DNA of 64,000 nucleotides from a bacterium (GTDB lineage Bacteria > Chloroflexota > Dormibacteria > Aeolococcales > Bog-877), in contig JAJYPP010000001.1 in assembly GCA_021795235.1 (NCBI GenBank), positions 1-64,000 on the forward strand, in the 5' to 3' direction. The first letter of the stretch is position 1; every line of letters begins with the position of its first letter. The notes under the pieces were generated by a model. It made no database searches, was not told the DNA's origin, and worked only from the letters and a program-made list of their open reading frames with translations. Below, piece after piece: positions 31,590-63,900 of this stretch. The translations under genes and the position numbers were made by a program.

Positions 31590-31608
31590 GGCCGCGCCCC
31601 AACCGGGG

Positions 31609-33572: not shown

Positions 33573-33744
33573 GGGCCGATGGTACGCGGGCCGTGACCCG
33601 GACGCCTGCGGTTGGGGAGGCGGACCTGCGTCCACTGGCACCGCCATGATTCCAGCGGGTGGGGTCATAGCGACCATGCGATTGTTCACGCCGCGGCTGC
33701 TGGTACGCTCGGTGGCACCGACTGAGGATGGGCGTGCCCTGTGC

Positions 33745-33795
33745 AGAGCCGGTAGGCCGCCACCTCCGGCACAGCTCTGGGGGCCTACCGGCTCT
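33745..33795. terminator. Perfect 14-bp inverted repeat AGAGCCGGTAGGCC / GGCCTACCGGCTCT
   Basis: 23-nt loop; lies 3' of the interrupted VOC gene on the minus strand; no U-tract. Confidence 0.45.
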
Positions 33796-33893
33796 CCCCG
33801 TGGAGTTTCACCACCAGCCCGGAGTCGGCCAGGAAGGTCGGATGGGTCCCGGGTGTTCCCGCCGCCAGCAGGGCCGGTGCGTGGAGCCCGAGG

Positions 33894-34047
33894 TTACGAC
33901 GCTGGCGGAATCGAAGGGTCGGCGGCGACAAAGATGCAGAACGGGTGACCGGCCGGGTCGGCATAGACCCTGATGGGCTCGGCCTGATCATCCGCTCGGT
34001 CGCGAAGGAGTCGGGCTCCAAGGCTAAGAGCTCGGGCGTGGTGCCGA
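33894..34047 (-). pseudogene. VOC (glyoxalase-like) family protein, C-terminal part, interrupted by tnpB element
   Basis: HHARALSLGARLLRDRADDQAEPIRVYADPAGHPFCIFVA. Confidence 0.8.
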
Positions 34048-34130
34048 GTGAACCTCCCCGCCCTTACGGACGGGGCTTGTGGGGCTCCGTCCACTTGGTT
34101 GGGGTTGCGCGCCATCGCTCGCCTCACGCC
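34048..34130 (-). ncRNA. Putative right-end-derived omega/reRNA scaffold overlapping tnpB 3' end
   Basis: Position directly downstream of tnpB with terminal hairpin; expected from known TnpB biology, not demonstrated. Confidence 0.4.
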
Positions 34131-35542
34131 ACCGCAGCCAAAGGGCCTGGCGCCGAGGCGCCGGTGGATGGGTTTGCTGGGACACGCTCGCTCACCGCAG
34201 TTGCCTGCGGCAAGGCCCGGTTCGGGGCGCTACTCAGGGCTCTGGCCTTGCGGCGCTGCACCAATCGGTGCGCCTGGCGCTGGTCCTTGGACCAGCGCTC
34301 GACGGCCCGGAGATACGTGACGCGGATCTCGGTATCCGGTCCTATGGAGAGGTACTCCCCGTGAATCGCCTTCTGGAGGATGTTGGTCGCTCCTACGGCG
34401 TCGCGGTGGCAGGTGAAACCGCACCCCTGGCATCGGTAGTGCCGCCCCCAGGGGCGGTTGCTTCTTAGGCACTTCGGACAGGTCTTGGTGGAGCCGGACT
34501 CGTTGAGGTGCTCGATCTCGCGTCCGGCCTTCTCGGCTAGATAGCGCTCTTGGGTTCCTCTCGACCACTGGGATAGCTGCTGCCTCAGGTGTCGGCCCGC
34601 GCTCTGGCGCTGCTTGGTGTTCCGCTCGATCCCGCGCACGTCGCCGGCCACGATGCGCAAAGCCTGATGGCAGATCGCGAAGTTGGCCGCCCGGCTGGCC
34701 ACCTGGTGGTCGAAGTCGCGTAGCTGCCCGGTGGCTTTGGCCTTGATCCGCTTCTTGGCGGCCACCAGCCGTCGGTGCCGCTTCGAGCCGTCCTTCATGC
34801 GGGAGAGCCGCTTCTGGATCGCGCCCACGCCCTTGTTGCGGCGCCGTTTGACGGCCCTTGCCTCGCGCCCATTTATGACCGTCACCTCGATGGTCCTCTC
34901 GCCGACCCAGCTGGCCAGCGCCATGGGGTTGATGATGCCTTCGTCGATCGCGATCAAGTTGGTACCCTCGGAGCCCTCCCTCACAGTCTCATAGGGGATG
35001 TGCAGCGACCATTGCCGGGCATCCCGGTCCCAGCAGAGTTGGATCTCGCCCCAGCGTGAGGCCTCCACCAGTTCTCCTCGGGCGGAGTCCTGGACCCTGG
35101 GCAGGGGGAGGACGATGCGCGGCCGGCCCCGGCCCAGGGAGAGTGCAAGGCGGCCATCCGGGGTTACCCGCCAGCCGAAGTTGGCGGTGAAGCTGAGGGG
35201 CCGGTAGTTCTTCTTCCGCCACGGGGCTCGCACCTTCATGCCCGCCTTCCGGTTGGTGCGGTAGGTGGCGATGGCATCCGCGAGGTCGTGAGCCAGGATC
35301 TCGGTCGTGTGCGCGTGCAGGGGACGCTCCCCGCTGGGGAGAGCGGTGAGGAACCGCTGGATTGCGTACTTGCCCGGAGAGCGCTTCTCCTTCCACTCCG
35401 AATGCACCCACTCGGTGGCCTGGTTCCAGAGGAGAGCGGCCACATGGCAGGCATCATGCGCTCGGCGGTAGTCCGTCCCGCTCAGAGTCACCCGGCAGAT
35501 AGCCGTCCGCTTGTCGCCCGCCCTCGCCGTCTCTACGCTCAT
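34124..35542 (-). CDS. tnpB: TnpB (RNA-guided nuclease-like transposon protein, IS605 family)
   Basis: AIDEGIINPMAL; SGSTKTCPKCLRSNRPWGRHYRCQGCGFTCHRDAVGATNIL zinc finger and RuvC-III. Confidence 0.92.
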   Translation of the reverse strand: MSVETARAGDKRTAICRVTLSGTDYRRAHDACHVAALLWNQATEWVHSEWKEKRSPGKYAIQRFLTALPSGERPLHAHTTEILAHDLADAIATYRTNRKAGMKVRAPWRKKNYRPLSFTANFGWRVTPDGRLALSLGRGRPRIVLPLPRVQDSARGELVEASRWGEIQLCWDRDARQWSLHIPYETVREGSEGTNLIAIDEGIINPMALASWVGERTIEVTVINGREARAVKRRRNKGVGAIQKRLSRMKDGSKRHRRLVAAKKRIKAKATGQLRDFDHQVASRAANFAICHQALRIVAGDVRGIERNTKQRQSAGRHLRQQLSQWSRGTQERYLAEKAGREIEHLNESGSTKTCPKCLRSNRPWGRHYRCQGCGFTCHRDAVGATNILQKAIHGEYLSIGPDTEIRVTYLRAVERWSKDQRQAHRLVQRRKARALSSAPNRALPQATAVSERVPANPSTGASAPGPLAAVA

Positions 35543-35638
35543 GCGTTCGCATTATAACCCCAGAGCCCGCCCTGAGGGCCGTGGGACACCGGCGGCCTTG
35601 ACCCCTCCCTCACAGAAGGGGATTGCGGCCGCAATGTG

Positions 35639-35911
35639 TTCAAACTCCTCGAGAGTGGGGACGGCGAGGTCCAAGTGCATCTGCTGGGGGATGGGTCCAT
35701 CTGGCCAGGTGACCTGAGGCAGCGTGGCCACCTGCTGAAACGCCAAGCGGCGGTCGCCCGCCCCGGCTTCGAGCACGAGCCACTCGTCTCCCCGAGGGTC
35801 GGGACGGCCGGGCTCGGGCGCCTCGTCGCCGGGTCGGTAGGCGAGCCCCAGCAACTGGCGGTAGAACTCTGCCAAACGTCGCGCGTCGAGGCAATCCAGT
35901 ACCGGCTGCAC
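35639..35911 (-). pseudogene. VOC family protein, N-terminal part, interrupted by tnpB element
   Basis: VQPVLDCLDARRLAEFYRQLLGLAYRPGD...MHLDLAVPTLEEFE. Confidence 0.78.
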
Positions 35912-36238
35912 CAGTCGCGGGAACGGTTGAACTTCCGCTGGGAATCCTCCAGGCTTCGAGCGCCGGTCAGACCGCCCAGGTCCAACGGGCACTTGCGGAC
36001 CGCATACCCGCTCGGTATTGGGATTGGGGCCGACAGACCCGGCTATCATCCCGTAGCTGGTCAGCGGCTTGGACCGGGTCACGCGCATCCAGAGCCGCTA
36101 AGCCCAAGCGGGGCCGCTTCAACGTGATCGCCCGGCAACGGGCCGACCGGGACTTTGACGACCTGCACTGCCACGGCGCGTGTGCGAAGCGGCGGGGGAC
36201 AGGGCCCCGCGGTGGGGGGACTTGTATCATCTGGGAAA

Positions 36239-37651
36239 ATGAGCAAAGAGGCAGCACCGCAGGGGTCTAGGCGGCGGATCCTCACCGCCCAGCAGGACGA
36301 CTTCCCGGGCTGGTACCAGGATGTGGTTGCCAAGTCGGAGCTGGCGGAGAATGGTCCCGTCCGCGGCACGATGGTCATTCGCCCGTATGGGTACAGCCTG
36401 TGGGAGCGCCTGCAAGAAGAATTGGACCGCCGGATCAAGGCCACCGGTGCCCGCAACGCCTATTTTCCACTGCTGATTCCCCAGTCCTACCTGCACCGGG
36501 AGGCGCAGCATGTGGAGGGCTTCAGTCCCGAACTGGCGGTCGTGACGCATGGCGGGGGCAAGCGACTGGAGGAGCCGGTGGTGATACGGCCCACCAGCGA
36601 AACCATCATCAACGCCTGCTTTGCCCGCTGGATACACAGCTACCGTGATCTGCCTCTCTTGATCAACCAATGGGCCAATGTCGTGCGCTGGGAGCTCCGA
36701 CCCCGGCTGTTCTTGCGCACGACCGAATTCTTGTGGCAGGAAGGTCATACCGCTCATGCGACCGAGGCCGACGCACACGATTACGCTCTTCGCATCCTCG
36801 CGGATGTTTACCAGGACACCATGGAAAACGTGCTGGCGATCCCAGTGCTTACCGGACAGAAGACGGATTCGGAGCGGTTTGCTGGGGCAGTCACCACCTG
36901 GACTTGTGAGGCCATGATGCGGGACGGGAAGGCTTTGCAGATGGGCACCAGCCATGAGTTGGGCCAGAACTTCGCGCGCGCGTTCGATATCACCTACTCA
37001 GACGCCGCCGGCACGCTTTGTCATGCGTGGCAGACCTCGTGGGGGGCCTCCACCCGCTTGATTGGAGCACTGGTGATGGCTCATGGAGATGATGCGGGGC
37101 TGCGGATTCCGCCGCAGCTGGCTCCGGTTCAAGCGGTGGTGATCTTGATTGGCGGTGACGGTGACACGGGAGCAAGGGCGGAAGCGATCACGAACGATCT
37201 CCGGCGAGCTGGTGTACGCGCGGAGCTGGATGGGCGCACCGGGATTGCCTTCGGACGTCGCAGCATCGAATGGGAACTCAAGGGTGTGCCGGTACGGCTG
37301 GAGCTTGGGCCGCGAGAGCTCGATGATGGGCAGATCACCCTGGTGGAACGGCACAGCTCGCGGAAGTCCACGACTCCACTCACATCGGTGGTGGAGTCCG
37401 TCCGCCACGCCTTGACGCTGGCCCAGCGGTGCTTATTCGACGAGGCGAGGATGCGGATGCAGGAGCGCACCGTCTTGGCGGCGGACCTTGAGACCGCGCT
37501 TGAGGCTGCTCAGCACGGTTTCGCCCAATTGCCGGTGAATGCCCTTGGGCAGATCGGTGAGGAGTGGCTCAACGCTCGAGGCGTGAGTGTCCGCTGCCTG
37601 ACCCAGGATGAAACCGGCGCCAGGCAGGCCGTCATTGCCAGGGCGTACTGA
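36239..37651 (+). CDS. proS: Prolyl-tRNA synthetase (archaeal/eukaryote-like short type)
   Basis: VRGTMVIRPYGYSLWERLQEELDRRIKATGARNAYFPLLIP; RPTSETII; WRxELRPRLFLRTTEFLWQEGHTAHA. Confidence 0.96.
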   Translation: MSKEAAPQGSRRRILTAQQDDFPGWYQDVVAKSELAENGPVRGTMVIRPYGYSLWERLQEELDRRIKATGARNAYFPLLIPQSYLHREAQHVEGFSPELAVVTHGGGKRLEEPVVIRPTSETIINACFARWIHSYRDLPLLINQWANVVRWELRPRLFLRTTEFLWQEGHTAHATEADAHDYALRILADVYQDTMENVLAIPVLTGQKTDSERFAGAVTTWTCEAMMRDGKALQMGTSHELGQNFARAFDITYSDAAGTLCHAWQTSWGASTRLIGALVMAHGDDAGLRIPPQLAPVQAVVILIGGDGDTGARAEAITNDLRRAGVRAELDGRTGIAFGRRSIEWELKGVPVRLELGPRELDDGQITLVERHSSRKSTTPLTSVVESVRHALTLAQRCLFDEARMRMQERTVLAADLETALEAAQHGFAQLPVNALGQIGEEWLNARGVSVRCLTQDETGARQAVIARAY

Positions 37652-37954
37652 TCCGGCCGTGCGGGAGCGTGGTAGCGACGGTTGGAAGTCGATGGGACAC
37701 CTGGAGCAGGCGCAACCTGGCCGTCGGAGCTCCGCTCGGTACTAAGCCCGGTGACCCCACGGGTCACTGGGCGGCGATCAGGACTCGGCTGGTGCCTCCC
37801 CGGCTTCGAGATCCGTGACGACTCCATGGCTCCGGCCCAAGGCCGAGGACGACGTTAAGATCGTAGCCCCAGGGCCTGCCCTGACGACGGCGGCTGGCGG
37901 AGCGGTGATCCGGGCATCGACTGCAACGAGCTCGATAGAAGGCGGGAGGCCAGG

Positions 37955-39196
37955 GTGCTCAAGGTTCACGGGAATGGTCCGTCGCCATTTTCAGAGCGGG
38001 CATTCCGGCTGATCTTCTCGGCTTCCAGCATCTCTCTGGTGGGCAGCGCGGTCGCTCCCATTGCATTGGCATTCGGGATGTTGCAGGCGACCGGATCGGC
38101 CACCGACCTGGGTATCGTGCTCACAGCCCGCGAGGCGGTGCAGCTGGTGCTGCTGCTCTTCGGTGGAGTTGTCTCCGACAGGGTGTCGCGCCATCGCGTC
38201 CTGGCTTGGAGCAACTCTGTGTCCGCGGTGGCTCAGGGCACGACCGGAGCGCTCTTTCTCACCCACCACGCCGTGGTCTGGGATATCTCCATCCTGGCGG
38301 CGCTCAACGGCGCTGCCACCGCGTTTCTGTATCCCGCCTTCAACGGAGCTGTGCCGTCGACAGTACCGGCTGAGGCCCTCCGTCAGGCGAACACGTACCT
38401 GGGCCTTTCGGAGAGTGCGGTCACGGTCATCGGCTCGGCGGTGGGCGGGGGCTTGGTGGCGGTGGTCGGGCCGGGTCTGGCAATCGAGATCGACGCCTTG
38501 AGCTTCCTGGTGGCGGCTGCGCTGGTGGCCCTGATGAGGCTGCCGGCTGCTCAGCGAGACCATGCTCGCTCGACGCTCCAGGACCTGCGTCAAGGTTGGA
38601 GTGCCTTCTGGAGCCGTACCTGGCTCTGGTCGATCGTACTGCAGTTCTCCATCGGCAATATGGCGTTCGTCGGCGCCGTCGATGTCCTGGTTCCGATCGA
38701 CGCCCGTCGCTTCTTGGGGGGCCCCGCGGCATATGGAGCTCTGTTCGCGGCCGTGGGCGTGGGTTCGGTGGTGGGCGGGCTCGTGATGTTGAGGGTGGCG
38801 CCTCGCCGGCCTCTGCTCACGGCCACCATCTGTACGGGCATTGGGATGCCCCCGGTCTTCCTGCTGCTGGCGCTGGGAGCACCCCTCTGGGCGCTCCTGG
38901 TCGCCGCTGCCGTCGCTGGAGCGGGATTCCAGGTCTTCGGAGTGCTCTGGACCACGACCATGCAGGAGCAGATCCCGTCGGCACTGCTATCGCGGGTGAG
39001 CTCATACGATGCCGTGGGTTCGTTCGTCTTCATGCCGTTGGGTCTGGCTCTGGCGGGCCCGGTCGAGATCTGGATCGGGCTGCACGCAGCCTTCTGGGCG
39101 GCTCTGGCGCTGAGTACGATCCCGACTGTAGTTGTTCTCCTCGTACCGTCTGTCCGGCGCCTGGAGCGACGATCTGCGCCGTCGATGGCGGTGTGA
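37955..39196 (+). CDS. MFS transporter (drug-efflux, DHA3-like)
   Basis: FSERAFRLIFSASSISLVGSAVAPIALAFGML; GGVVSDRVSRHRVLAWSN. Confidence 0.88.
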   Translation: MLKVHGNGPSPFSERAFRLIFSASSISLVGSAVAPIALAFGMLQATGSATDLGIVLTAREAVQLVLLLFGGVVSDRVSRHRVLAWSNSVSAVAQGTTGALFLTHHAVVWDISILAALNGAATAFLYPAFNGAVPSTVPAEALRQANTYLGLSESAVTVIGSAVGGGLVAVVGPGLAIEIDALSFLVAAALVALMRLPAAQRDHARSTLQDLRQGWSAFWSRTWLWSIVLQFSIGNMAFVGAVDVLVPIDARRFLGGPAAYGALFAAVGVGSVVGGLVMLRVAPRRPLLTATICTGIGMPPVFLLLALGAPLWALLVAAAVAGAGFQVFGVLWTTTMQEQIPSALLSRVSSYDAVGSFVFMPLGLALAGPVEIWIGLHAAFWAALALSTIPTVVVLLVPSVRRLERRSAPSMAV

Positions 39197-39489
39197 TGAA
39201 GAAGCGCCGCGCCGGCGGTCGCGGGGCTTCCCGACGTCGGGTCGCGTTGAGGTCGTATTGCTGTACGCCTCCTCACCAGCCGCACCCAGACCTCAGGAGA
39301 TCGGCCAGTCAGCTTTCGGATGCTCTCCAGCCCGGCGGGACCCCACTTGCTGGCGATCGAGCACGTGCGTCCGGACTCTATAGCGAAGGCCGCCGTAGAG
39401 ATCGCCCACGAACTTGTGCTCGAGTTTGGCCCGACTGTCGCCCGGAACCACTTCCAGGATTCGAGTTCAGCGTGGGGGCTCAGAGTCGA

Positions 39490-40263
39490 TCAGGGTCGCG
39501 ACGCTTGGAAGGTCCAGACATCGCTGCCGGCCACGGGGGCGGTGCCAGCGCGGTAGTCGGCGGTCACGGTGATGCTGATGAATCCAGCACCCACGAGCAT
39601 CTGCTCGAACTCACTCACGCTCCAGTGCTGGAGCCGAAAGAGCTGGAGTTCACTGGCGACTAGGGCCCCAGCATGCCATTTTTCGTAGCGGAGCCACCGC
39701 GTGGTCTGGTTGGCCACTGGGTCGTGCTCGATGTGCTGCGTCTGGAGCGTCCACACGAAGGGGCCAGCCCTCCAGTGCCGCATCGGCTCGGGCTCGGTCA
39801 CCAAGTGGGCCGGCGGCACGTCGACCAGGAGCCGGCCGGATGGTTGTAGGTTTTCGCGGAAGCTGGCGAGAGCTCGGGTAGTCGCGTCCCTCCCGTCGAG
39901 CAGCGTGATGGACCCGGTGGGGATGACCACAGCCGCGTAGGCGGCTGGTTGCACGAAGGTGGTCATGTCTGCCTGGTGGAGGACCGGGTGCAGGTTGTGC
40001 TCTTGGCAGTGGCGTCGGCACACATCGAGCATCTCGGGGGAGGTGTCGACGCCCTCCACGTCGAGGCCGGACTTGAGCAAGGGGATCAGGACCCGTCCAG
40101 TTCCAACCGCCGGTTCCAGAATCCGTCCGCTGACCCCGATCAGCTGGTTCAAGTAGTAGCTGACATCATCGCGGAGTTGGCCGATCGGCTTGTCCAGGTC
40201 GTAGACCTCGCTGCACAGCGTGCCGTAGTCCGAACTCAAACGCGACTCCTCCTTCTCGTACAT
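39490..40263 (-). CDS. Class I SAM-dependent methyltransferase
   Basis: GVSGRILEPAVGTGRVLIPLLKSGLDVEGVDTSPEMLDVCR. Confidence 0.88.
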   Translation of the reverse strand: MYEKEESRLSSDYGTLCSEVYDLDKPIGQLRDDVSYYLNQLIGVSGRILEPAVGTGRVLIPLLKSGLDVEGVDTSPEMLDVCRRHCQEHNLHPVLHQADMTTFVQPAAYAAVVIPTGSITLLDGRDATTRALASFRENLQPSGRLLVDVPPAHLVTEPEPMRHWRAGPFVWTLQTQHIEHDPVANQTTRWLRYEKWHAGALVASELQLFRLQHWSVSEFEQMLVGAGFISITVTADYRAGTAPVAGSDVWTFQASRP

Positions 40264-40518
40264 GTCGGTGGTCCGTGTCGGGCCCTGGTTGCACTGGGCG
40301 GTAGTCGCCGGAGAATCCGTCCCTGTTCGCCTGGGTAGGAGCATCCGCTGAGCAGGTGGCGGTGGCTGCTGACGCTGCGTAGCTCACCGTGGCAGCTACG
40401 ATCGATGGCGTTGCCTGCCGGGGCATGCCAAGAATCGTTACACCACCAATTTTTCAGTATTGTGCTGTATTGGAGCACGTGACTGCTGCAGGTGGGGGAC
40501 AGATTGTCCGGCTTTCAG

Positions 40519-40535
40519 GGCCCCTGCAAGGGGCC
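40519..40535. terminator. Short GC hairpin GGCCCCT-GCA-AGGGGCC next to tRNA remnant
   Basis: Perfect 7-bp arms; would lie 3' of the tRNA-like sequence on the minus strand. Confidence 0.45.
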
Positions 40536-40563
40536 TCAGTTCCCTCTCTTGATCTCAAAAGTG

Positions 40564-40609
40564 GAGGTGGTGCGCCCAGAGGGATTTGAACCCCCGCAAA
40601 CCCAGATCC
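40564..40609 (-). repeat. att-like direct repeat copy 1 (tRNA-Arg(ACG) 3' half)
   Basis: 46 bp identical to 44039-44084; minus strand GGATCTGGGTTTGCGGGGGTTCAAATCCCTCTGGGCGCACCACCTC; flanking CTAC gives anticodon loop CTACGGA. Confidence 0.85.
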
Positions 40610-41095
40610 GTAGCCTGGCGCTGCCCGTCGGACGTGGCCAGTGATCTCGGCAGCAGCGCCTGATATGTGGTTAGTGCTGCTTGACTGCGCTTGACACTGT
40701 TAGCGTGATGCAGCGTCGATAGTGCAACAGATCCAGTCCAAGACACGCGTGACTCTAGTTGAGAGAGGACCGAGGAGGAGCGAGAAGCTGCTGGCAAGGG
40801 GGATGGCTATGAGTTCCCTTTCTCCACGGTGCCGCAGGTATCAGCGCCCGTGGCGACCAGCCTGCCACCGGTCCCAGAACTAGTCGCGATAGACGCCGAG
40901 ATCGTGGAGCAGCCTGACCAGGGCGTGTGGCCAGAACGCGTGCCCCGGGGTGACAGTGGGCGCGGGATAGCTGGCCGTCGCGATTGAGCGTCTGAAGTTG
41001 CGGCGATCCGTCACCCCGAAGCTCGGTCCCGAACTACCGGAGCAGATTGACCGGTTCGCGGTACTTGAGGTCGGGAAGCGACCCGGACCGGAGGG

Positions 41096-41308
41096 TCAGA
41101 GCGTGACCAGTTTGAGATGGCGGGAGGCATCGCTTCTCAGCTCGTCGAGCGCCTCTGGATAGGTCTGGACGAGGTCACGCAGATTCGCCAGAGCCTCTTC
41201 CTGCGTCGCCCCCTGCGCGACAGTGCGCAGTTCGGCGGCGTGGGCGACCCATCCGCGCCCCGGCGCCTCGATCAGGGTCACCGCGACGGTCACGGGCTCA
41301 GCGAGCAT
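41096..41308 (-). CDS. HicB-like antitoxin, copy 1
   Basis: VTVAVTLIEAPGRGWVAHAAELRTVAQGATQEEALANLRDLVQTYPEALDELRSDASRHLKLVTL; paralogue at 49409-49621. Confidence 0.65.
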   Translation of the reverse strand: MLAEPVTVAVTLIEAPGRGWVAHAAELRTVAQGATQEEALANLRDLVQTYPEALDELRSDASRHLKLVTL

Positions 41309-41549
41309 GGTCAGTCCCCCGGTACAGGACCGCTACTTCGTCCGCCACGGAGTTTACGCACCGAGGACAGCCACCCGAACGCACAGTTGGGGCGGACGCT
41401 CAACGCACCCCGACGAGAGGCTGCACCCGGTCGGGCCTGGGTCGGACGACACCTTCGGCATTGCGTCCCGCCGGGACCCCGGCAGTGGCGCTCTAACATA
41501 CGCCGGCATCCGTCCCTGATCGCCCCCGTGGCGCGGATGGTCACCCCGG

Positions 41550-41720
41550 GACGTGGATCGCTGTCTGGGTGACGAGAGGATGTCCTGCCAGTGGCGGCGC
41601 CCGGGCACCGTTGGCGAAGCAGAGCTCGAGGGCCTCCTTTCAAGGTTGGCCAGGCTTTCCTCCACGGTCGGCCCCTGAGTGGTTAGCTCGACCTGGAGGC
41701 AGTGCGGTACGTACCTGTGG
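41550..41720 (-). pseudogene. HicB-like antitoxin with frameshift (decayed copy of 49849-50079)
   Basis: YVPHCLQVELTTQGPTVEESLANL then frame lost; nucleotide alignment to intact copy shows a 2-nt insertion (AACCTTGAAAGGAGG vs AACCTCAAGGAGG). Confidence 0.65.
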
Positions 41721-41731
41721 GAGAACCCGCT

Positions 41732-41938
41732 TCACAGCGCCTCGCGCAGCTCGTCGAGGGTCAGCCCGAACTCCGCCGCCACCTGCCGGAGCTGCACGGT
41801 CCCAAGTTCGCGGGCATCGTGGTAAGCGAAGGTACGCAGCTCCCCACCCTTGGCGAACCGCTTGTGAGAGCCGCGCTCTCGCACGATCACCCACCCACAG
41901 CGCTCAAGGGCCTTGACGACCTCCCGGGCTTTGGGCAC
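41732..41938 (-). CDS. hicA: HicA-type toxin
   Basis: ALERCGWVIVRERGSHKRFAKGGELRTFAYHDARELGTVQLRQVAAEFGLTLDELREAL; GTG start abuts preceding stop. Confidence 0.85.
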   Translation of the reverse strand: MPKAREVVKALERCGWVIVRERGSHKRFAKGGELRTFAYHDARELGTVQLRQVAAEFGLTLDELREAL

Positions 41939-42331
41939 TCAGGCGGAGACGTGATGAGGCGGTGCCCCAAGCCGCGCTGGAATGTAGATGCGCTCCATCC
42001 CGGCGGGAGGCGCAGACCCTTCTTCCCCTTGTAGAGTGAACGCGATGGCGTCACGGGCCTGGAGGACGGCAGCGGCCCTCGTCTTGTCACCTCCGACTAT
42101 GCCCAGGCTCGGCACGCGGAAGCCCCACCCGTCCGACTCGGGGTCGTGGACCAGCTCGACCTCGAAGTTGATCGAACGTCCCGAGGCCCGTCGGGGTTGG
42201 CCCGGGGCGTGGCGGAGCAGGGACAATGCAAGCTCCGACAAGCCGCGCAATAGCCCGACGCCCACGCTTGTCTCAGCCTCGGTCCTGGGCCGCCGCTCCC
42301 GTGGGGTTTGGAGCTGCACGCCTCGGCTCAT
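41939..42331 (-). CDS. hicB: HicB-type antitoxin
   Basis: INFEVELVHDPESDGWGFRVPSLGIVGGDKTRAAAVLQARDAIAFTLQGE; immediately upstream of hicA; N-terminal start uncertain. Confidence 0.7.
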   Translation of the reverse strand: MSRGVQLQTPRERRPRTEAETSVGVGLLRGLSELALSLLRHAPGQPRRASGRSINFEVELVHDPESDGWGFRVPSLGIVGGDKTRAAAVLQARDAIAFTLQGEEGSAPPAGMERIYIPARLGAPPHHVSA

Positions 42332-42704
42332 CGGTGTTCCTCCTGTCGGGCCGCTAGCCAGCCCTTACGGTTAGGTGAGTATCCCCCTTCTGGCAGGGTT
42401 GTGCGCCTTCCCCGTCACCCGAGAGAGCGGGGGCCAGACGAGGTGAAGTGGCCCTACCTGGACTTGACCCGTGACATAGGGTGGCGGTAGACGCGGCCGG
42501 CGGCGCGCGGAGCCATGGACGCCTCTACGGGCGATGGGAGTGGTGGGTGACGGTGGTTTGCCCTGAATTCATAGAGATGGGGCCGCGGTCGCTGGTGCCG
42601 GTCATCGGCTCCCCTGAGCAGGTCTGGAGTTGCAGCCAGGACCGGGGCACGCGGGCCTAGTGGCGCCCCCAGGCCGGGACGGTGATCGGCCTGGCCCCTG
42701 GCAC

Positions 42705-43016
42705 CTACGCCGACAATGACAGAGAGTCGGGCGTGACCTCGATGTGGAAGTTGATACCGAGTCCGCGAGATAGCTTGCTCAGGGTGCCGAACGTGGGTTC
42801 GTGCTCGCCGATCTCCAAGCGCGCTATCGCCGGCTGCGACATCTGGAGCCTCTTGCCGAGTTCGCGCTGTGAAAGCCCATGCTCTGCACGATAGGCGACC
42901 ACCTTCAGTGCCACGGCGCGAGCCAGAGCCGTGCGCTCCCACTCCCGGCGGAACTCGGAGTCCTCAAGATGCCCGGCAAGAACCTCGGCGGCTGTGGGCA
43001 TTTCGGAAAGCTTCAT
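42705..43016 (-). CDS. XRE-family antitoxin (HigA-like)
   Basis: AYRAEHGLSQRELGKRLQMSQPAIARLEIGEHEPTFGTLSKLSRGLGI HTH. Confidence 0.88.
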   Translation of the reverse strand: MKLSEMPTAAEVLAGHLEDSEFRREWERTALARAVALKVVAYRAEHGLSQRELGKRLQMSQPAIARLEIGEHEPTFGTLSKLSRGLGINFHIEVTPDSLSLSA

Positions 43017-43020
43017 CGGA

Positions 43021-43347
43021 CTACTCCTGTTCGATTTGGTTGAGGCGGGATTCGGCAAACCTGACCGCCTTCTGGAACCCCTGGGGATTGACCGCTGCCT
43101 CGGGCCCGATCGCCCCGACGACGAACTGGTCCCCGACCCGTCGGTAGAAGGCCCTCCAAAGGCTGCGCCCACCGCGCGGCCGGAGCTCGCGGACGGTGGA
43201 ACTCCGAACCGCACTCTGATGCGGGAAGCCGAGGGCATGGCCCGCGACCCGGAGCTTGTCAACTGCGTTCGTCATGGCGACCTGTTCTCGAGGGGGCAGC
43301 GCGTCCTCCTCGGCCTTTGCGTCGGGGTGATATCGGACATCCCACAT
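43021..43347 (-). CDS. RelE/HigB-like toxin
   Basis: MWDVRYHPDAKAEEDALPPREQVAMTNAVDKLR...VRELRPRGGRSLWRAFYRRVGDQFVVGAIG. Confidence 0.85.
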   Translation of the reverse strand: MWDVRYHPDAKAEEDALPPREQVAMTNAVDKLRVAGHALGFPHQSAVRSSTVRELRPRGGRSLWRAFYRRVGDQFVVGAIGPEAAVNPQGFQKAVRFAESRLNQIEQE

Positions 43348-43479
43348 GTGAAACCGATCTATATCATCCTTGTTATGTGCCCTGCAGTCAAGGGGCAGGC
43401 AAAGGTTGAGTCTCCCGTCGCGCGCCTCAGGAGCGCCGCTCAGTTCGGGCTCGGGGCCTTGTAGGGTGGTGCCGAATGG

Positions 43480-43770
43480 AGCGTCTCCGGACGAGCCTTC
43501 CCGGTGTATGTGAGGTGGCGGTAGATCCAGGCCCGGCTGACGGGGCGATGGCCTCGACTGTGAACTCGCTGGACTCATACATCTGCCGGGCAGAGGTCAC
43601 CTTGTCGGGGGACATCACCAGCGGCCGCCCGCCGTGGCGGTCCCGCGCCCTCGTCAGGCCGACCTGGGTGCGCTCCCGGATCGGCTCGCGCTCGAACTCG
43701 GCCAGGGCCCCGAAGAGGTGGAAGACCAGCTTGCCGCTTGAGGTGAGGGAGCAGCAGCCATGAAGTTCGT
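43480..43770 (-). pseudogene. Serine recombinase (resolvase) remnant
   Basis: SSGKLVFHLFGALAEFEREPIRERTQVGLTRARDRHGGRPLVMSPDKVTSARQMYESSEFTVEAIA; N-terminal catalytic domain disrupted. Confidence 0.75.
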
Positions 43771-44038
43771 CAGGTGTCCGAGGGCGCCGACGGTGGTCGC
43801 CGCCGTTGACGGGGAACTCAAGGCTGCTCCTGAAGGGTCGCCCTTGACCGGGTTGGGTTGCGCCGACGATGGTGAACCCCGCTGAGGCGGCAACCAGCGT
43901 CGGCACCGGGTCCTTCAGATGCGCCCAGTGATGCCGCGGGTGTCCGTGGGCGTCCGCCTGGAACTTACAAGTGGTCGCTGATGTTCACCTGTGACCGCGC
44001 TTGGCCGTTGGCGCTGTTCTTCCCAATTCATTTGAACT

Positions 44039-44084
44039 GAGGTGGTGCGCCCAGAGGGATTTGAACCCCCGCAAACCCAGATCC
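44039..44084 (-). repeat. att-like direct repeat copy 2 (tRNA-Arg 3' half)
   Basis: 46 bp identical to 40564-40609. Confidence 0.85.
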
Positions 44085-44690
44085 ATAGTTAGTGCCCCTG
44101 ATGGCAAGTCCTCAACCATCAAATTGCGAAGTGGCTAGGAGCACCAGATTGCGGCTCCGGCGTCCATAGCACCACCAGACCACTGCACCAAAGAATTGGG
44201 TGATGCAGCACCAGATTGTGTGCTAATAGGCGGCTGGCCGACCGGGCCGCTTGGCCACCAGGTGGAAGAGACGGCTCAGCTGCCGGTAAGGGTCTCGCCG
44301 GCTGGCCTCAAGCTCGACCGCAAGGAGGTCGGCGCTGGCGTCTTCGGCCGGGAGCTCATGACTCCAGTCGTCCAAGAACAGCCGTACACTGCACCAACCG
44401 GCCGGTTCGATGCGTCCGGTTGGTCAACCATGTGTCCCGTTCTGCCCAGCAGTGGGGTGCCGCTTGTCGAGCTTGGATGGCGGCCCAGTGGTCTCTGCGC
44501 AGACCCGCTCACTATCGGAGCGTCCGAACTTGGCCACGATCAGTAGTCTCGCCTCTCATTACAGAACCCAAACCAGAGTTCCCAACAGCGCTGGACTTAG
44601 TAGGGTTAGACTGAGAGTAGTCTCGACAGGACTCGGACCTGCGCGTCCCGGTTCCGAGGTTAGGCGCTGCATCGGTCAGCGTCGGCAAGA

Positions 44691-44792
44691 GGCCGGAGAC
44701 CACCGAGTGATCTCCGGCCAGGGCGGACTAGGGCTGGGCTCCGGCGGGGCTAGTTGTCAGACCATCCCGCCGGGCCAGCCCGCCGTTTTTTT
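44691..44792 (+). terminator. Tandem hairpins ending in a T7 run (strong intrinsic-terminator-like)
   Basis: GGCCGGAGA/TCTCCGGCC (44691-44719); GGGCTGG..CCGGCGGG / CCCGCCGG.CCAGCCC (44731-44781); TTTTTTT (44786-44792). Confidence 0.65.
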
Positions 44793-44814
44793 GAGCATGG
44801 TGCTCACCTCCTGC

Positions 44815-45321
44815 CTAGTCACGGCTGACTTCCTTCCCCTGACGAGGAAGATTGAGGAGATAGGGCTGAGACAGGTAGACATCATTCCAGTGGGTGCGAA
44901 CCCCGATCTGGCTGGGGTTGGTCGAAGTGCCCATCAACTGCGCCTCCGGAGGCGCAGTGAGACCCCACCCGTCCGCGTACCGGGTGAACCGTCTGTCACG
45001 GCTCAGGGTGCGCGGCACGGAGGCCCGCTTCACATGGAAACCGCGGGACATAAGCCGCACCCAGAGGTCGTCTACGAACATGTGTCTCGGCTCCTGGGTT
45101 AGGATCTGCTCAACTGCGGCGGGGATGCCGCGTGGCATCGGGGCGAACCCTGGCACCGAGCCGGGCGGTGCAACTCGGGTCTCCGTACGGGGCGGCGCGT
45201 ACTTCCGCTCTAATCCCGAGATCAGGGCGCCTAGCCGAGCCAGCGCGTCAGCGGTCGCTGCATATGCGGCTTGAGCCGCTCGCAGATCCTCTGCCAGTTG
45301 CCGTGGTGAGTCTGATGCCAT
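44815..45321 (-). CDS. HARE-HTH-like hypothetical protein (coiled coil + winged helix)
   Basis: IPAAVEQILTQEPRHMFVDDLWVRLMSRGFHVKRASVPRTLSRDRRFTRYADGWGL; similar layout to 55795-56199. Confidence 0.65.
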   Translation of the reverse strand: MASDSPRQLAEDLRAAQAAYAATADALARLGALISGLERKYAPPRTETRVAPPGSVPGFAPMPRGIPAAVEQILTQEPRHMFVDDLWVRLMSRGFHVKRASVPRTLSRDRRFTRYADGWGLTAPPEAQLMGTSTNPSQIGVRTHWNDVYLSQPYLLNLPRQGKEVSRD

Positions 45322-46232
45322 TACTCGGATGAGTGTACCAGGTTCGTCGGCAGCCTGTCTACGTTGTCCTAGGTGGCCGGGCGAGGCTACGCCGGAGCCG
45401 ACTTGTCAAGCATCGTGACGATCAAATTGAGCCACTACCTTCAAGGTAGCGAGCCAAATGCTGATCGGAGATGATCGCCATGAGGGTGACGGCGGGCTGC
45501 TCAAGGGGCATGGAGAGAGCCTGAAGTAACCGGGTCGGTCGGGGTCGTCGCAGGTCATGACCACGGGGTGGTTGGATATCGGGTCGACCAGTTGATGTGG
45601 CAGGTGTCCGCCTCCGTTCGCCTGCGTAGGGGTATCCGTTGGGGTAATGGCGGCCGAGCTGACACCATGCGTAGCTCCCAGCGTCATCTCAGGGCTGCTC
45701 TGCAGTCCGCGGCGAAGGCCGGGCACTCAGTCCGTCGGAGCATGCGCCGGCCAGGGTGTCGACTTGGTGTCCGGCGGATGACCCCCGGCACCCCAGCGGT
45801 CGGCCCACCCAGCCAAGACTTATCAGATGCGCTCATGGGAGCCGTGCGTCTGCGCGCAACCTGCTGGAACTCGTCAGCAGCCGCACTCGTCGCCATTTAG
45901 GGGCATGGAAGTCACGACTGGGATCACAGATGCGGCCGGTGTGGGTGGGGGGTGGCAGCTTTCCTGAGGGGTCACAACCTTACTGAGTCGGCACGTTGGG
46001 GAGTCCGGCTCCGTGTCAGACCGCTGAGGCAAGTGCTACAGGTCGAGGCCTTGGAGCCCCTGTCGGACGGCCCCGCCACCACAACGGCCAAGCAGCAGGG
46101 CGGATCTGTCCACGAGCCCGAGGTGAGCCACCACGCCGGCAAGCTGGAAGACGGCGGAAGAGCTAACGTGGTTATGATGTTGACCTCGGAGGTAGTTGGA
46201 TCCTCGGGTCCCATGCGGAAGTTGGAGCGACC

Positions 46233-47882
46233 GTGACCGCTCTCAAGGATCCTCTGGCGGCCAGGAAGCAGACCGAATCATGCTGGTGCGGTTCAGGTAA
46301 GCAGTATGGGAGCTGCCACGGTTGCCTGAACCAGGACAGCCCTCCTGGCGCTCCAGTGCCAGAGGACGATGACAAGCGTGTCTGGCTGTCACCGACCAGG
46401 ACGATGTCGCCAGAACTCCGAGAACACCTGAGCCAACAACTGTGCGGCATGTCAATCACGCTGCCGGGTCGCTCCGAGACTATCACTCGGCAGAGAGTCG
46501 TCAACTTGCACCTGGCCTTGGCCAGCGCTAAGCCGGCAGTTGATCCTCATGATCTCGCAACTATTGGGCTGAGACGGCTTGAGATGCTGGAACTGCTCGG
46601 TCTGAGCAAGCCCGATCGGCTGGAGGCTCGAATCCGCGAGCTGTCCGCGTCGGACCTGACAGATCTGCGGTACGGAGTAGTCGACCTCGCCAAGGTCACG
46701 ATCGATCGATTGCTGCATCAGGCCAGTCTGGATCCAGTGCCTACTGTGCTCTGGAACTCGAACTCCGAAGGGGCCCTGGGCACGATCGCTTCGACCATGT
46801 TGTGGGCGGATCACTACTTGATTGAGGACCAACTGCTCAATGCGCTTATGGACGATCAGCCATTTCTACCGGAACTCGCTGGGGCCATCCGCTATCTGCT
46901 TTCAAATGCTCCCTTGATCGAAACCGGTCTTCTAGTACCGATTCCCGTAGCGGCGGCTCGGGAGCTCGCCGCGACCGACATTGAGTCGGCGATTACCCAG
47001 GACCTTCGCGAGCGGAAGTTAATCCGTTGGACCCGCGATCAGGTTCGCCTGGTCGAGGGTCCAACGGCGCGCCAGGTGCTCTTCTTCGAGGCTCGGGACC
47101 ACGATGGACCGGAGCAGTTCTTCTTCAAGGCCGGCTTTCTCCGCGGGACGGAAGTCCCACTACCGGGTGGGGGCGGACGTGTCCTCTCTCGCCTCCTGGG
47201 CCCGTACGACCCGAATGAGAACTATCGACCGTGGATCCAGCAGAGTCGCCGCTCGGTGGCTCTCGACCTGCTCAACGAGATGAACACTGACTTGGCAATC
47301 GCAAGTGCGTTCGGTGGGCGGGTAGTCGCCCGGTCTCCCTTCCAAGCACGGCTGCTGCAACGCAAAGGCGCTCTGACGGTGACTGGCGCGCAGGCTCTCA
47401 GTTGGGCCGAAGTGCCCGCGATCTTGCCCCGGGACGCGCGTGACCTTGCCCGAGTCATCCGGAAGCATGACGCCGTGGAAGCCCTGCGGGCTACCGTTAG
47501 AAGTGCCATCCCCGAAGCTGGTGAGTTCACACCTGAACAGGGGGCCTTGCTCGCCGCCGAGTGCGTGCAGCGGGTTCAGGAGGACGTTGAGCGTCTTCGG
47601 CGAGACATCGGGCGCGACAGGATCCTGCACCTCGCTGAGTTCGTGATCGGCCTGCTGGCGTTTGGGCGGGCCCCGGCAGTCACCGGTTTGCTGGGGCCCG
47701 CCGCAGGGTTGGCCGTCAACTTCGGTCACTACCAGATCAACCAAGTCGCACGGCGGCGGTCTGGGGCGTACGCCGCGATGATCGGCGGAGGACTAGTCCC
47801 GCCTCGAGCCAACCCAGACCGCGGGGACCCGTCGGCCTATCAGCAGATGCGGATCAATCGGACGACCGCCATCCGACGGTGA
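46233..47882 (+). CDS. SEC-C motif protein of unknown function (549 aa)
   Basis: N-terminal CWCGSGKQYGSCH fits CxCx8CH; remainder not recognised. Confidence 0.75.
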   Translation: MTALKDPLAARKQTESCWCGSGKQYGSCHGCLNQDSPPGAPVPEDDDKRVWLSPTRTMSPELREHLSQQLCGMSITLPGRSETITRQRVVNLHLALASAKPAVDPHDLATIGLRRLEMLELLGLSKPDRLEARIRELSASDLTDLRYGVVDLAKVTIDRLLHQASLDPVPTVLWNSNSEGALGTIASTMLWADHYLIEDQLLNALMDDQPFLPELAGAIRYLLSNAPLIETGLLVPIPVAAARELAATDIESAITQDLRERKLIRWTRDQVRLVEGPTARQVLFFEARDHDGPEQFFFKAGFLRGTEVPLPGGGGRVLSRLLGPYDPNENYRPWIQQSRRSVALDLLNEMNTDLAIASAFGGRVVARSPFQARLLQRKGALTVTGAQALSWAEVPAILPRDARDLARVIRKHDAVEALRATVRSAIPEAGEFTPEQGALLAAECVQRVQEDVERLRRDIGRDRILHLAEFVIGLLAFGRAPAVTGLLGPAAGLAVNFGHYQINQVARRRSGAYAAMIGGGLVPPRANPDRGDPSAYQQMRINRTTAIRR

Positions 47883-48240
47883 TTGGGAGTAGCTGTCGAG
47901 GCGGTCAACAGGCCGCGGGCTGGCGGCGGGGAGGAGGGCTGTCAGTGGTTCGGACCATCAGCTCCGAAAGAAGTACACGCGAGCTCGAAGGGGGAACGAG
48001 AGGCGAGATGGGACCGCCGACATCGGGTTTTTCAGATGCACCCAGGGGTGCCGCTGACGTCCGTCAGCGTCCGCGTGGAACTCAGGAGTGGCCGCCATTG
48101 ACCGCCTCTGTTCGCCACTAGTTGTTGGCGTTGTGGCCAAAACTGTGGTCAACACCCCGCGCTTCCGGCGGCTCAGGCCCGTGAACGGCGGGGGCTGGGA
48201 TCGAGTACTCTCATGGCCATGATAACTGTGGTGATGTTCC

Positions 48241-48903
48241 GTGCCCGCCCGGCGGCGGACCGCGCGCGACGACCGGCGGCGGAGTCTCAGTCAGAACTTC
48301 CTACATCCGGATTGGGCTGAGCGCGTAGTCGAGTCCGCCGACGTTCACTCCGGGCAGTTGGTCCTTGAGGTCGGGGCAGGGTCTGGAGTCATGACCTTGG
48401 CGCTCGCGCGACGTCAGGTGCGGGTGATCGCACTTGAGTTGGATCCGGTGTGGGCTCGGAAGTTGGCCGGCGTGGTCCGTGGTAGTGGCTTCAGTCAAGT
48501 GCGGGTGGTGCGCGCAGACGCGCTGACATTCCCCCTCCCCTCGCGGCCCTTCAGGGTGGTGGGCAACCCGCCCTTCGGGGCGACCACGGCAAGCCTTCGG
48601 CGCCTGCTGGAAGACCCTCGGGTCCCAATGCAGCGAGCGGACCTGATTGTTGAGTGGGAGGTCGCGCGGAAGCGCTCATCCGTACCGCCCGACACGCTGC
48701 TTGGCACGATCTGGGCCCCTTGGTGGGAGTTCGAGCTGGGCGAGAAGATCCCGTCCACCGCCTTCAGGCCGGTGCCGAGGGCCGCGGCGTGCCATCTGGT
48801 CATCAGGCGGCGGACTCCGCCGCTGCTCCCCCTTTCAGTCGCGGCCGCCTACGGCGCATTCGTCCGTACTTGGTGGATGAGGCGGCGAGACCCTGGGGAA
48901 TAA
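48241..48903 (+). CDS. Erm-like 23S rRNA (adenine-N6) methyltransferase
   Basis: RRSLSQNFLHPDWAERVV; VLEVGAGSGVMTLALARRQVRVIALELDP; VVGNPPFGATT (NPPF). Confidence 0.85.
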   Translation: MPARRRTARDDRRRSLSQNFLHPDWAERVVESADVHSGQLVLEVGAGSGVMTLALARRQVRVIALELDPVWARKLAGVVRGSGFSQVRVVRADALTFPLPSRPFRVVGNPPFGATTASLRRLLEDPRVPMQRADLIVEWEVARKRSSVPPDTLLGTIWAPWWEFELGEKIPSTAFRPVPRAAACHLVIRRRTPPLLPLSVAAAYGAFVRTWWMRRRDPGE

Positions 48904-49154
48904 CCTGGAGCACGTTGAATCGGTCCTCTGGTGCTGCCCGCAGGAGTGGCTCGGCGATCTGCGTAGCTGCGCCCGATTTGCGACTAGCTCGCCTCACCAG
49001 TGCTCGACACTGGCGGCGTGGTCCGGCGTCGACAGGAAAAACGGACCCGGCCCAATACACGCGTGACTCGCCGTGAGAAGGGGCCGGGGAGTGGTGAGAG
49101 GCCATTGGCGACGGGGATGGCGATGAACTCTCGCTCTCTACCGAGTGGCAGGCT

Positions 49155-49358
49155 TCAGCGTCCTTGGCGACCGGTCTGCCACGAGGCCCAGAACTCGTCG
49201 CGAGATACGCCGAGATCGTGGAGAAGCCTGACCAGGGCCTGTGGCCAGAAGGCGTGCCCCGGGTGACAGTGGGCCCGGCTCAGTTGGCCATCGCGATTGA
49301 GCACCTGAAGTTGCGGCGATCCGTCACCGCGAAGATCGGTCCCGAAGTATCGGAGCAC
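49155..49358 (-). pseudogene. Possible HicA-like toxin remnant
   Basis: HPGHAFWPQALVRLLHDLGVSRDEFWASW resembles HicA C-terminus; lacks GSHHxF motif. Confidence 0.25.
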
Positions 49359-49408
49359 ATTGACCAGCTAGCGGTACCTGAGTCCCGGGAGTGACGCGGA
49401 CCGCGGGG

Positions 49409-49621
49409 TCAGGGCGTAACCAGTTCGAACTGTCGGGAGGCGTCACTTCGCAGCTCGTCCTGCGCCTCCGGATAGGCTTGGACGAGATCAGGAAGATTCG
49501 CGAGCGCCTCTTCTCGAGTCGTCCCTTGGGCGACAGCGCGCACTTCGGCCGCGTGGGCCACCCATCCGCGCCCCGGCGATTCGATCAGGGTGAAGGCGAT
49601 GGTCACGGGCTCTCTGGGCAT
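49409..49621 (-). CDS. HicB-like antitoxin, copy 2
   Basis: VTIAFTLIESPGRGWVAHAAEVRAVAQGTTREEALANLPDLVQAYPEAQDELRSDASRQFELVTP. Confidence 0.65.
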   Translation of the reverse strand: MPREPVTIAFTLIESPGRGWVAHAAEVRAVAQGTTREEALANLPDLVQAYPEAQDELRSDASRQFELVTP

Positions 49622-49848
49622 AGTGAGTCCTCCTTTGGCAGGGCCGCTACGGTCCACAACGCAGTCTACCCATCCACGACGGCACCCTGGAGCCATCAAA
49701 GAGGGCGGACGCCCAACGCCTCGAGGGAGTGGCTGCATCCGGTCAGACTCGGCGGGTGTGCAACTTTGACGTTGGGTCCCTCGGGGCGCCTGGCGTGTCG
49801 CCGCAACCTCCGGCGCTGCGGCTACCCGACTACCAGGGAGGCCGACGG

Positions 49849-50079
49849 TCAAGCGGGAGTTCTGATCTCAATCTGGGTGACGAGAGGATGGCTCACTGGT
49901 TCTGGCACTGGGGTGCCGTCCGCGAAGTAGAGTTCGAGAGCCTCCTTGAGGTTGGCCAGCGCCTCCTCCACAGTTGGCCCCTGAGAAGTCACCTCGACTT
50001 GGAGGCAATGCGCTACGTACCACGTGCCTTCGCGAGTGATGATGGCCGTCAGCGTCCGGGACACGGTCGGGGTTGCCAC
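49849..50079 (-). CDS. HicB-like antitoxin
   Basis: LTAIITREGTWYVAHCLQVEVTSQGPTVEEALANLKEALELYFADG. Confidence 0.8.
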   Translation of the reverse strand: MATPTVSRTLTAIITREGTWYVAHCLQVEVTSQGPTVEEALANLKEALELYFADGTPVPEPVSHPLVTQIEIRTPA

Positions 50080-50948
50080 GAGCGCAGGATACCCGATTTG
50101 CCAGCGATGGGTCTGGTGTGTGGGGAGGCGGCCTGCCGGACCACTGACGTCTCTCAGCTGGCTGAGCGTGCCGGCCGGTAACTCGGCCGCCTTGCTCCGG
50201 GAATGGTGAGGGCCACTGGGTGGGCACCGAGCGCTGGCTCCAGGTCTTCCAGTTGATCCAGCGGATGTCCGCGAGTGTTCACAGGCGTCCGTCTTGAGAT
50301 CGAATGAGCCACTCTTTGAGGGTCGATCGTCCGCTTGAGTCCGTCACTGTACGTCTGGGTAGGGGTATCCGCTGGGGTAGTGGCAGACAGCTTGATACTG
50401 GGACGCAGCACTCGGAGTCGCTGACTGCCGGGCTGGATTGGTCCGTGTGGAGCGGCTACCAAGGATGCCGCCGAGGTGCGGGTGTGTCGGCTGTGAACGG
50501 CCGCGGTCACCTCTGGGGCGTGCACGTGGACGTGCGGTGCTCCGCTCTGGGCTCAGATCGCCCACTCAAAGGCTCGAATCCCGCCGCCCAAGCCAGTTGG
50601 TTCGCACTTGGTGGGCAGGGTGACCGCCTCGGCGGTTATTTGACACCTGCGGGCGAGCTGCCATCTCTGGGAGGAGCAGCGACGCATCGATTGCGGGCGA
50701 GCGGCAGAGACGGAGGACCGTTCGGGGCGTGCCAGATTGGCGGAGCCTGGTGGCTGCCCGGCTTCGGCCGTGCCAGTGGTCTCGAGCCCAGCGACTTAGA
50801 CTGCCGCAGATGAGGTTGCAGCGGACGACGAGATCCATCGTGGATATAACCACCGTACACACGTGCGACTACATCTTGTGGTCACGAGGCTTGACACGTA
50901 CACTGGGTGGGGTCCATACTGCCTACTGGCAGGGTAGGCTCGTCCAGT

Positions 50949-51209
50949 ATGGAGGGGCTCGATCTCGCTGACCAACCGTCTGTCTGGGCAGCAGTGAGGA
51001 GGACCACGGTGATGATTTGCACAATCTGCGGAGAATGGGTGGCTCGCGAGATCATCCAGGATGAGGTGGCTAACTACTTCCAGCACCGACTCGTCAGGCA
51101 CCACGTCGGCAACGACTTGGCGGCAGGCATTGGCCACTTGGTTGGCATCGCGAGCGCGGTGTTGGTGATGAGCGCATTCTCAAGCAACTGGGGCAGGGGC
51201 CAGAAGTAG
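50949..51209 (+). CDS. Small hypothetical protein (CxxC and hydrophobic C-terminal segment)
   Basis: ATG at 50949 preceded by TTGACA-18-CATACT; MICTICGEWVAREIIQDEV. Confidence 0.4.
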   Translation: MEGLDLADQPSVWAAVRRTTVMICTICGEWVAREIIQDEVANYFQHRLVRHHVGNDLAAGIGHLVGIASAVLVMSAFSSNWGRGQK

Positions 51210-51325
51210 CCGGGATCCCTGGCGGACGTCAAGACTGCTGCTTGAGATAACGGTCGGACTAGCCTCGGCCCGTTGCTGACTGCCAACGACCCGTGCCAGG
51301 ATCAGGGGTTCCTTAGGGGAGTGCC

Positions 51326-52069: not shown

Positions 52070-52503
52070 CTCAACCATAGCGAGATCGAGGCACGCACGC
52101 ACTCCGGCAAGCTCAGTCCGAGCCGACTTGGCCAACAGCGAAGCCGTTCATCGCTGATCGTCTGGAGGAGCTACGCATTGGCCTCTGTGCGTGCTGGGTG
52201 CGAGGTGAGGACTCGAACTCCGAGACACGATTTCAGACGTCCTCATCCGGCGGCAGAGTTGCTGCACCCAGTTTTGGGCTAAGGAGGGTGGCCATGATCT
52301 CGGCGGAGCGCGCCGATGGCACACGGAGCTTGCATGGTCCGCCGTACACCGATGCTCGGCTCCTAGCGCTCCGCCCCAGCTGTGCGAACTCGCGCGGCGG
52401 GCTTCCCGCCGTCGCCACCAGACCGGAGGTCTGGCGCGCATACTTCGCGGGTCAGATCGGCAGTATGAATGTCGAAGGCTCCTCGTCCTTCCTCCCCAGC
52501 GCT

Positions 52504-55581: not shown

Positions 55582-55794
55582 TGGGCGAAGTGTAGGAGGG
55601 ACGCACGGAGCAAGTCCTGCGGGCTACCGCGACCGCTCGACGGAGGCCCCAGGCTGTCGATGTCGCTGGGCTGGGGTTGAGTGGTGCTGGTCATCTGGTT
55701 TCCGGAATCCGGCCAGCTACATCCCGACCATGGCATGCCTCTAGCAGTCACGTCCCGTTCCTGATTGGGGTTGATTGGGATACACTGCACGGCC

Positions 55795-63813: not shown

Positions 63814-63900
63814 CCCGAGACCCCATCCGGGGCCGGCGACAGCCTCCCTGACGCCGGGCGCCTCTGCCCGATCTTCTCAAGCCGAGAATCTCCGCACCCC

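Follow-up and report, generated by a model that had tools for sequence, protein, structure and literature searches.

We analysed a 64,000-nt window (bases 1–64000 of the 224-kb contig C130 in a 3.67-Mb bacterial assembly, G000) in which an earlier note had described two copies of a tRNA-Arg(ACG) 3' half bounding a 3.5-kb toxin-antitoxin cassette. We conclude that integrative elements have very probably inserted in tandem into the 3' half of tRNA-Arg(ACG), in an array composed of the remains of a leftmost unit (U0), a 3.5-kb unit with B-type attachment arms that contains the cassette, and a 24.3-kb A-type unit that continues beyond the right end of the window. The core repeats, the arms and their two types, the integrase and the empty sites in relatives can all be recognised at the level of sequence.

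The core repeats are displaced tRNA-Arg(ACG) 3' halves on the minus strand, located by repeat comparison at 40564–40613 (copy 1) and 44039–44088 (copy 2). They are direct repeats, 98% identical over 50 nt, and the first 46 nt (through 40609 and 44084) are identical; the single mismatch sits in the anticodon of copy 2. The repeated span runs from the anticodon to the CCA of the tRNA, plus 4 nt past the CCA, and in copy 1 weak identity to the tRNA extends to 40622. A 26-nt probe taken from the repeat and allowed up to three mismatches matched copies 1 and 2 only in the window, and matched nothing in 100 shuffles. The repeats thus lie where the earlier note had placed them, and its view of them as integrase attachment cores is supported. 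In the whole assembly, the probe matched copies 1 and 2 and, as its third and last match, C130:68396. No fourth good core was found by this search, and the one additional match is not a random recurrence of the repeat: ARAGORN identified C130:68396–68474 (minus strand) as an intact tRNA-Arg(ACG) gene, the sole gene of this kind found in the assembly. This gene is 4.4 kb to the right of the window, on the side the earlier note had predicted, and beyond it are tRNA-Leu(TAG), trigger factor and clpP. The further tandem element that had also been predicted is present between copy 2 and the intact tRNA, and has its own integrase.

This 24.3-kb A-type element (44089–64000, and onward to the intact tRNA-Arg) is delimited by its cores, its arms and its integrase, IntA. 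As expected of an island, it has the intact tRNA at one end and the displaced fragment, copy 2, at the other end, on the same strand. IntA (C130:67282–68256, minus strand; PF00589, Phage_integrase, 1.2e-32) is an apparently intact tyrosine integrase of 324 amino acids, whose gene starts 140 bp from tRNA-Arg and is transcribed away from it. The domains of IntA, a SAM-like domain at residues 30–119 (weak, 3.7e-4) and a catalytic domain at residues 138–308, leave no room for an arm-binding domain, indicating that IntA is a simple (Xer-like) recombinase. There was no support for IntA as a XerC/XerD dimer resolvase, with curated scores of 134 bits (cut-off, 335) and 133 bits (cut-off, 330). About 2 kb of cargo near IntA (C130:64005–66054) is 78% identical to cargo of a B-type element in the relative G010 (C28:11028–13080), indicating that cargo is common to both integrase types.

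We separated the two arm types by comparing the flanks of all cores across the relatives' loci. The A-type arm beside the intact tRNA (68286–68395) is 81% identical over 110 nt to 40459–40567, to the left of copy 1, and no other match of that length to the copy-1 left flank was found in the relatives' loci compared. The flank, which contains a hairpin, thus corresponds to the integrase-side A-type arm of U0 (40459–40563, plus strand). To the right of copy 1 is the B-type distal arm of the 3.5-kb unit (40614–40833, plus strand), which is 83% identical to sequence beside a partial core in G003 and matches the sequence to the right of partial cores in G003, G010, G014 and G015; the copy-1 junction, in which a B-type distal arm stands against the core, recurs in G003, a member of the same genus. 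To the left of copy 2 is a truncated B-type integrase-side arm (44009–44038, plus strand), in which homology stops at about 44009. The 79 nt at 44011–44089, core included, are 98.7% identical to the stretch between the intact tRNA-Arg and a second integrase, IntB, in the same-genus G002, and the arm is 91% identical to its counterpart in G010. Hence, the arms to the right of copy 1 and to the left of copy 2 match those of IntB elements in G002, G010 and G014. IntB is 45–48% identical to IntA, and relatives have it intact at this tRNA. A complete 13.7-kb B-type element is present in G010, and a 1.8-kb remnant lies between MerR and the tRNA in G014. In the present genome, a relative of IntB (72–74% identical) is encoded on contig C88, beside tRNA-Gln. 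Genome-wide, ACAGCGCTTGACAC has two matches only at one mismatch or fewer, one in the arm of the C88 integrase and one in the copy-1 arm. We rejected this motif as a general arm marker, since at two mismatches it has 19 matches in the genome, compared with 16 for a reversed-pattern control; the two best matches alone carry meaning.

The earlier note had proposed looking for an empty tRNA-Arg site in relatives. We found such sites in G012, G016 and G017, members of the same family, in which tRNA-Arg has as its immediate neighbours a DHA2-type major facilitator superfamily (MFS) gene and a MerR gene. These native left neighbours are present in the window, the MFS gene at 29259–31577 (plus strand) and the MerR gene at about 31555–32022 (plus strand), ~35 kb from tRNA-Arg and ~8.5 kb to the left of copy 1, indicating that the array also extends to the left beyond the region covered by the earlier note. 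Next to the MerR gene is a tryptophanase-like gene (32199–33572, minus strand; NCBIfam tryptophanase, 3.8e-203). The same-genus G003 also has this gene beside MerR, but it was not found there in G001 or G002, so it could be either native or the oldest cargo. U0 (33573–40458) has profile matches to glyoxalase-like, proline--tRNA ligase (ProRS) family I, MFS and methyltransferase genes; we found neither an integrase nor a left end for it. The proline--tRNA ligase family I gene of this leftmost part of the island is at 36155–37651.

The 3.5-kb unit has no PF00589 match between 40564 and 44084, and its arm at copy 2 has been cut to about 30 nt. Since it is flanked by B-type arms, it descends from a B-type element, and we read it as an old, decayed B-type unit without IntB and most of one arm. 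The gene content given in the earlier note was upheld in part. Pfam matches identify a 68-amino-acid HicA toxin (41732–41938; PF07927, 1.4e-13, above the cut-off), a HigA-type antitoxin of the HTH_3 family (42705–43019; PF01381, 1.2e-13), a HigB-type (Gp49) toxin whose true start is probably further in than that of the listed open reading frame (ORF) (43021–43578; PF05973, 1.9e-7), and a resolvase remnant that retains only the end of the N-terminal domain (43427–43906; PF00239 positions 107–142 of 145), all on the minus strand. The PF05973 and PF01381 genes have the order expected of HigBA, a Gp49/RelE-like toxin followed by a helix-turn-helix antitoxin. The HicB-like and decayed HicB genes of the earlier note, by contrast, were assigned by position and eye only, and none of the HicB candidates has a HicB match in Pfam or NCBIfam, relaxed E-values included. 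The small ORF that had been called HicB-like (41096–41308, minus strand) has a second copy at 49415–49621 with 78% amino acid identity, and the ORF immediately upstream of hicA (41939–42331, minus strand), also without a profile match, is a putative HicB-type antitoxin by position. By analogy with known elements, the toxin-antitoxin genes probably persist because cells that lose the array are selected against. We also noted a 120-nt dispersed sequence (window 43850–44010), immediately upstream of the remnant of the resolvase, with ~73% identity to C146:7479–7595 and C56:3340–3459. Similarity between 43898–43978 and 48015–48095 was dropped as a candidate shared arm; it is more likely to be dispersed sequence, since it recurs on C146 and C56 and is just upstream of the resolvase remnant.

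In the proposed mechanism, the core of each element is its own copy of the stretch from anticodon to CCA, and a Xer-like tyrosine integrase would cross over in or near the anticodon, such that each insertion would rebuild the tRNA and shift the older insert to the left, with the displaced core remaining between them. Judging from position and decay, the order from left to right would be that from oldest to youngest: U0, copy 1, the 3.5-kb unit, copy 2, the 24.3-kb element and the intact tRNA. U0, which ends in an A-type arm, would have lost its integrase, and the 3.5-kb unit would have lost IntB by deletion, together with most of one arm. It is plausible that the 24.3-kb element is mobile at present, and unlikely that the 3.5-kb cassette is mobile alone.

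Several observations weigh against so simple a succession of insertions. The 24.3-kb element is not a simple single insertion, because it contains a decayed inner B-type junction (48897–50021, plus strand; 75% identity), consisting of a core trace followed, from 48915, by a B-type arm and its flanking genes. The sequence at 48928–50021 is 75% identical to that at 40615–41715, a 1.1-kb duplication inside the array. The core trace itself (48897–48935) is marginal, with a score of 11 compared with a shuffle maximum of 10, and the call of a decayed inner core would be tentative but for the adjoining B arm. In the simplest history, decay of the inner junction would have merged older tandem units into a single A-type element. 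In addition, no leftmost core that would mark the left limit of the array was found: there was no signal above shuffles between MerR and 40459. Lastly, the assembly consists of 174 contigs and has ~7% estimated contamination.

We considered three other explanations. The 3.5-kb cassette could be a live, non-autonomous, satellite-like element that moves in and out with the help of an integrase of the IntB or IntA type encoded at another locus of the genome. The C88 relative of IntB would be a candidate for such an integrase, as its arm and the copy-1 arm hold the two best matches to the motif described above; however, it is at a different tRNA, tRNA-Gln. The cassette has near-identical cores at both ends and a B-type arm on either side, but the copy-2 arm is only ~30 nt long and lacks the distal motif, and an anticodon base is altered in copy 2. 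In favour of this explanation, simple integrases can work without arms (Brujita integrase, from a title quoted in PMC8138268). Overall, we consider this explanation improbable.

Even less probable is the version of the earlier note, in which the sequence left of copy 1, hairpin included, would be native to the tRNA locus and copy 1 would mark the start of the island. The hairpin is indeed present, and copy 1 is the leftmost recognisable core. Nonetheless, the flank is a mobile-element arm akin to the one beside the intact tRNA, none of the empty-site flanks matches it, and the native MFS and MerR genes lie 8.5 kb further to the left; we therefore rejected the native-flank assignment as already contradicted. 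We also find it scarcely credible that ordinary segmental duplication, without site-specific integration, copied the end of the tRNA to give the repeats. The 1.1-kb duplication (40615–41715 and 48928–50021) demonstrates that genuine duplication has occurred in the array, but all cores start at the anticodon in the same orientation with integrase-type-specific arms, integrases adjoin the tRNA, and both a tRNA-Gly locus of this genome and the tRNA-Arg loci of several relatives have the same geometry. At tRNA-Gly(TCC) on contig C155 (L103:7484–7559), a 51-nt partial repeat from tRNA position 26 is present at 14246–14296, 6.7 kb away. Integration in succession at tRNA-Arg(ACG) is thus the explanation we favour.

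IntA belongs to a family of integrases that we followed in 49 loci of the present genome and its relatives (L137–L194, L059, L060 and L066), some of which share tRNA targets and one or two of which are duplicated. The family integrases are 39–209 bp downstream of a tRNA gene, in the same reading direction, and their targets include tRNAs of the Arg, Gln, Gly, Thr, Val, Ala, Pro, Phe and Lys kinds. The arms of the 24.3-kb element contain candidate accessory sites for these integrases. The distal A-type arm has two half-sites, AGCACCAGATTG, at 44140–44151 and 44207–44218 (plus strand), with a third copy at C130:68301. The 12-mer AGCACCAGAYTG is thus in both arms of the element, and has three exact copies in 84 kb (44140, 44207 and 68301). 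It is the reverse complement of the plus-strand 5' anticodon-stem stretch of the tRNA, which reads GAGCACCAGACT on the tRNA strand.

We compared arm sites and target tRNAs across the family, using one locus per distinct half-site (27) and 2000 permutations, with kinship handled by the distinct half-sites alone. An untargeted first look gave z = 9.2 for an inverted match and 4.1 for a direct match. At offsets picked after this first look at the same data, a direct copy 20–28 nt past the tRNA 3' end had a mean of 6.59 of 12 matches, compared with 5.82 when permuted, and an inverted copy 72–92 nt past the tRNA 3' end had 7.89 of 12, compared with 6.55 when permuted (6.34 in the control comparison); no permutation out of 2000 came up to either value. 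At the inverted site, the anticodon-stem positions agreed best. We observed no excess at two control offsets for the 27 distinct half-sites, and none at the direct or inverted site for integrases outside the family (n = 7). For tRNAs without a family integrase (n = 17), the direct site showed no excess and the inverted site a small one (6.76, compared with 6.22).

Given that the family lacks an arm-binding domain, the natural reading would be that binding to the accessory sites also falls to the core-binding and catalytic domains. We give about even weight to a broader proposal: that family integrases bind the predicted arm half-sites (direct at ~24 nt, inverted at ~85 nt) with their tRNA-binding domains, that these sites change with the anticodon stem and so record the target, that they may keep traces of older targets, and that arrays fuse to give larger composite elements when inner junctions decay. 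The tRNA-Gln-like sites in B-type arms weakly suggest such a trace of an older target after a switch. No prior description of accessory sites that follow the target tRNA was found in the literature searched, a scope that leaves out most subscription papers.

The 24.3-kb element also includes an Erm-like rRNA adenine methyltransferase gene (48241–48903, plus strand; PF00398, 5.6e-25; NCBIfam Erm, 5.9e-50, below its cut-off), whose stop codon coincides with the decayed core, a SIR2-domain candidate defence gene, PDC-S65-like in PADLOC (52504–54258, minus strand; PF13289, 8.4e-11; N-terminal half matched by PDC-S65 at 1.5e-116), the hsdM, hsdS and hsdR genes of a type I restriction-modification system (56196–62406, plus strand), and a GntR regulator. 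A short dispersed repeat of at least ~46 nt, 72–84% identical between copies, is present at 45606–45651 and 50339–50384 and on contigs C61 and C168, with a weaker copy at 40315–40360. Genome-wide, G000 has 34 tyrosine-integrase matches (31 over the curated cut-off) in 3.67 Mb, many of which adjoin tRNA genes (Gln, Val, Gly, Pro, Ser, Thr and others). At the tRNA-Gly(TCC) locus on C155, where the geometry is as at tRNA-Arg, the family integrase looks N-terminally shortened. Paired or degenerate tRNA-Arg-type cores 2.7–8.1 kb apart were also seen in G013 (C82; L052:5798 and 8466), G009 (C9; L047) and G023 (C45:133133/141269), suggesting that tRNA-Arg is a recurrent insertion hot spot.

One contig, together with its relatives, thus presents a single tRNA at which integrases of two types have acted one after the other, older units that have lost their integrase, and an old junction buried in a younger element. 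Insertion, loss and burial are a plausible route for the growth of integrative islands. The family around IntA offers natural variation in specificity, with dozens of related integrases, target tRNAs of many kinds and arm sites that change with them, such that switching of tRNA targets by simple tyrosine integrases is directly testable.

The target-tracking arms look like a new variant, whereas the tandem array is of an already known kind. Islander lists 125 tandems of at least two islands, four of which have at least three, and drops Xer-class proteins by profile (PMC4383910). The array described here resembles those tandems in having an intact tRNA with 3' fragments in the same orientation, an integrase beside the tRNA and an anticodon-centred crossover class; it differs in that at least two integrase types used one site and all units but the youngest are without an integrase of their own. 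Because Islander requires an integrase and a fragment for each member, the 3.5-kb unit would not be an array member by its rule. The 3.5-kb toxin-antitoxin block is by itself ordinary. The mosAT genes of SXT likewise are toxin-antitoxin genes inside an integrated element and penalise its loss (PMC2654960), as the cassette genes plausibly do; by contrast, the cassette genes are of the HicA and HigBA families. Simple tyrosine integrases without an arm domain are already known, for example IntBrujita (PMC8138268), an Xer-related mobile-element integrase with core-binding and catalytic domains only, as for IntA. IntA has only ~30% pairwise identity to mycobacteriophage integrases, and, unlike the IntBrujita system, the arms described here hold accessory sites that resemble the core half-site of the target tRNA. 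TnpI/IRS of Tn4430 is a transposon resolution system in which accessory repeats share the motif of the core binding site. It is similar in this respect to the arms at tRNA-Arg(ACG), but it is not targeted to a tRNA, and its motif has no changing target to follow.

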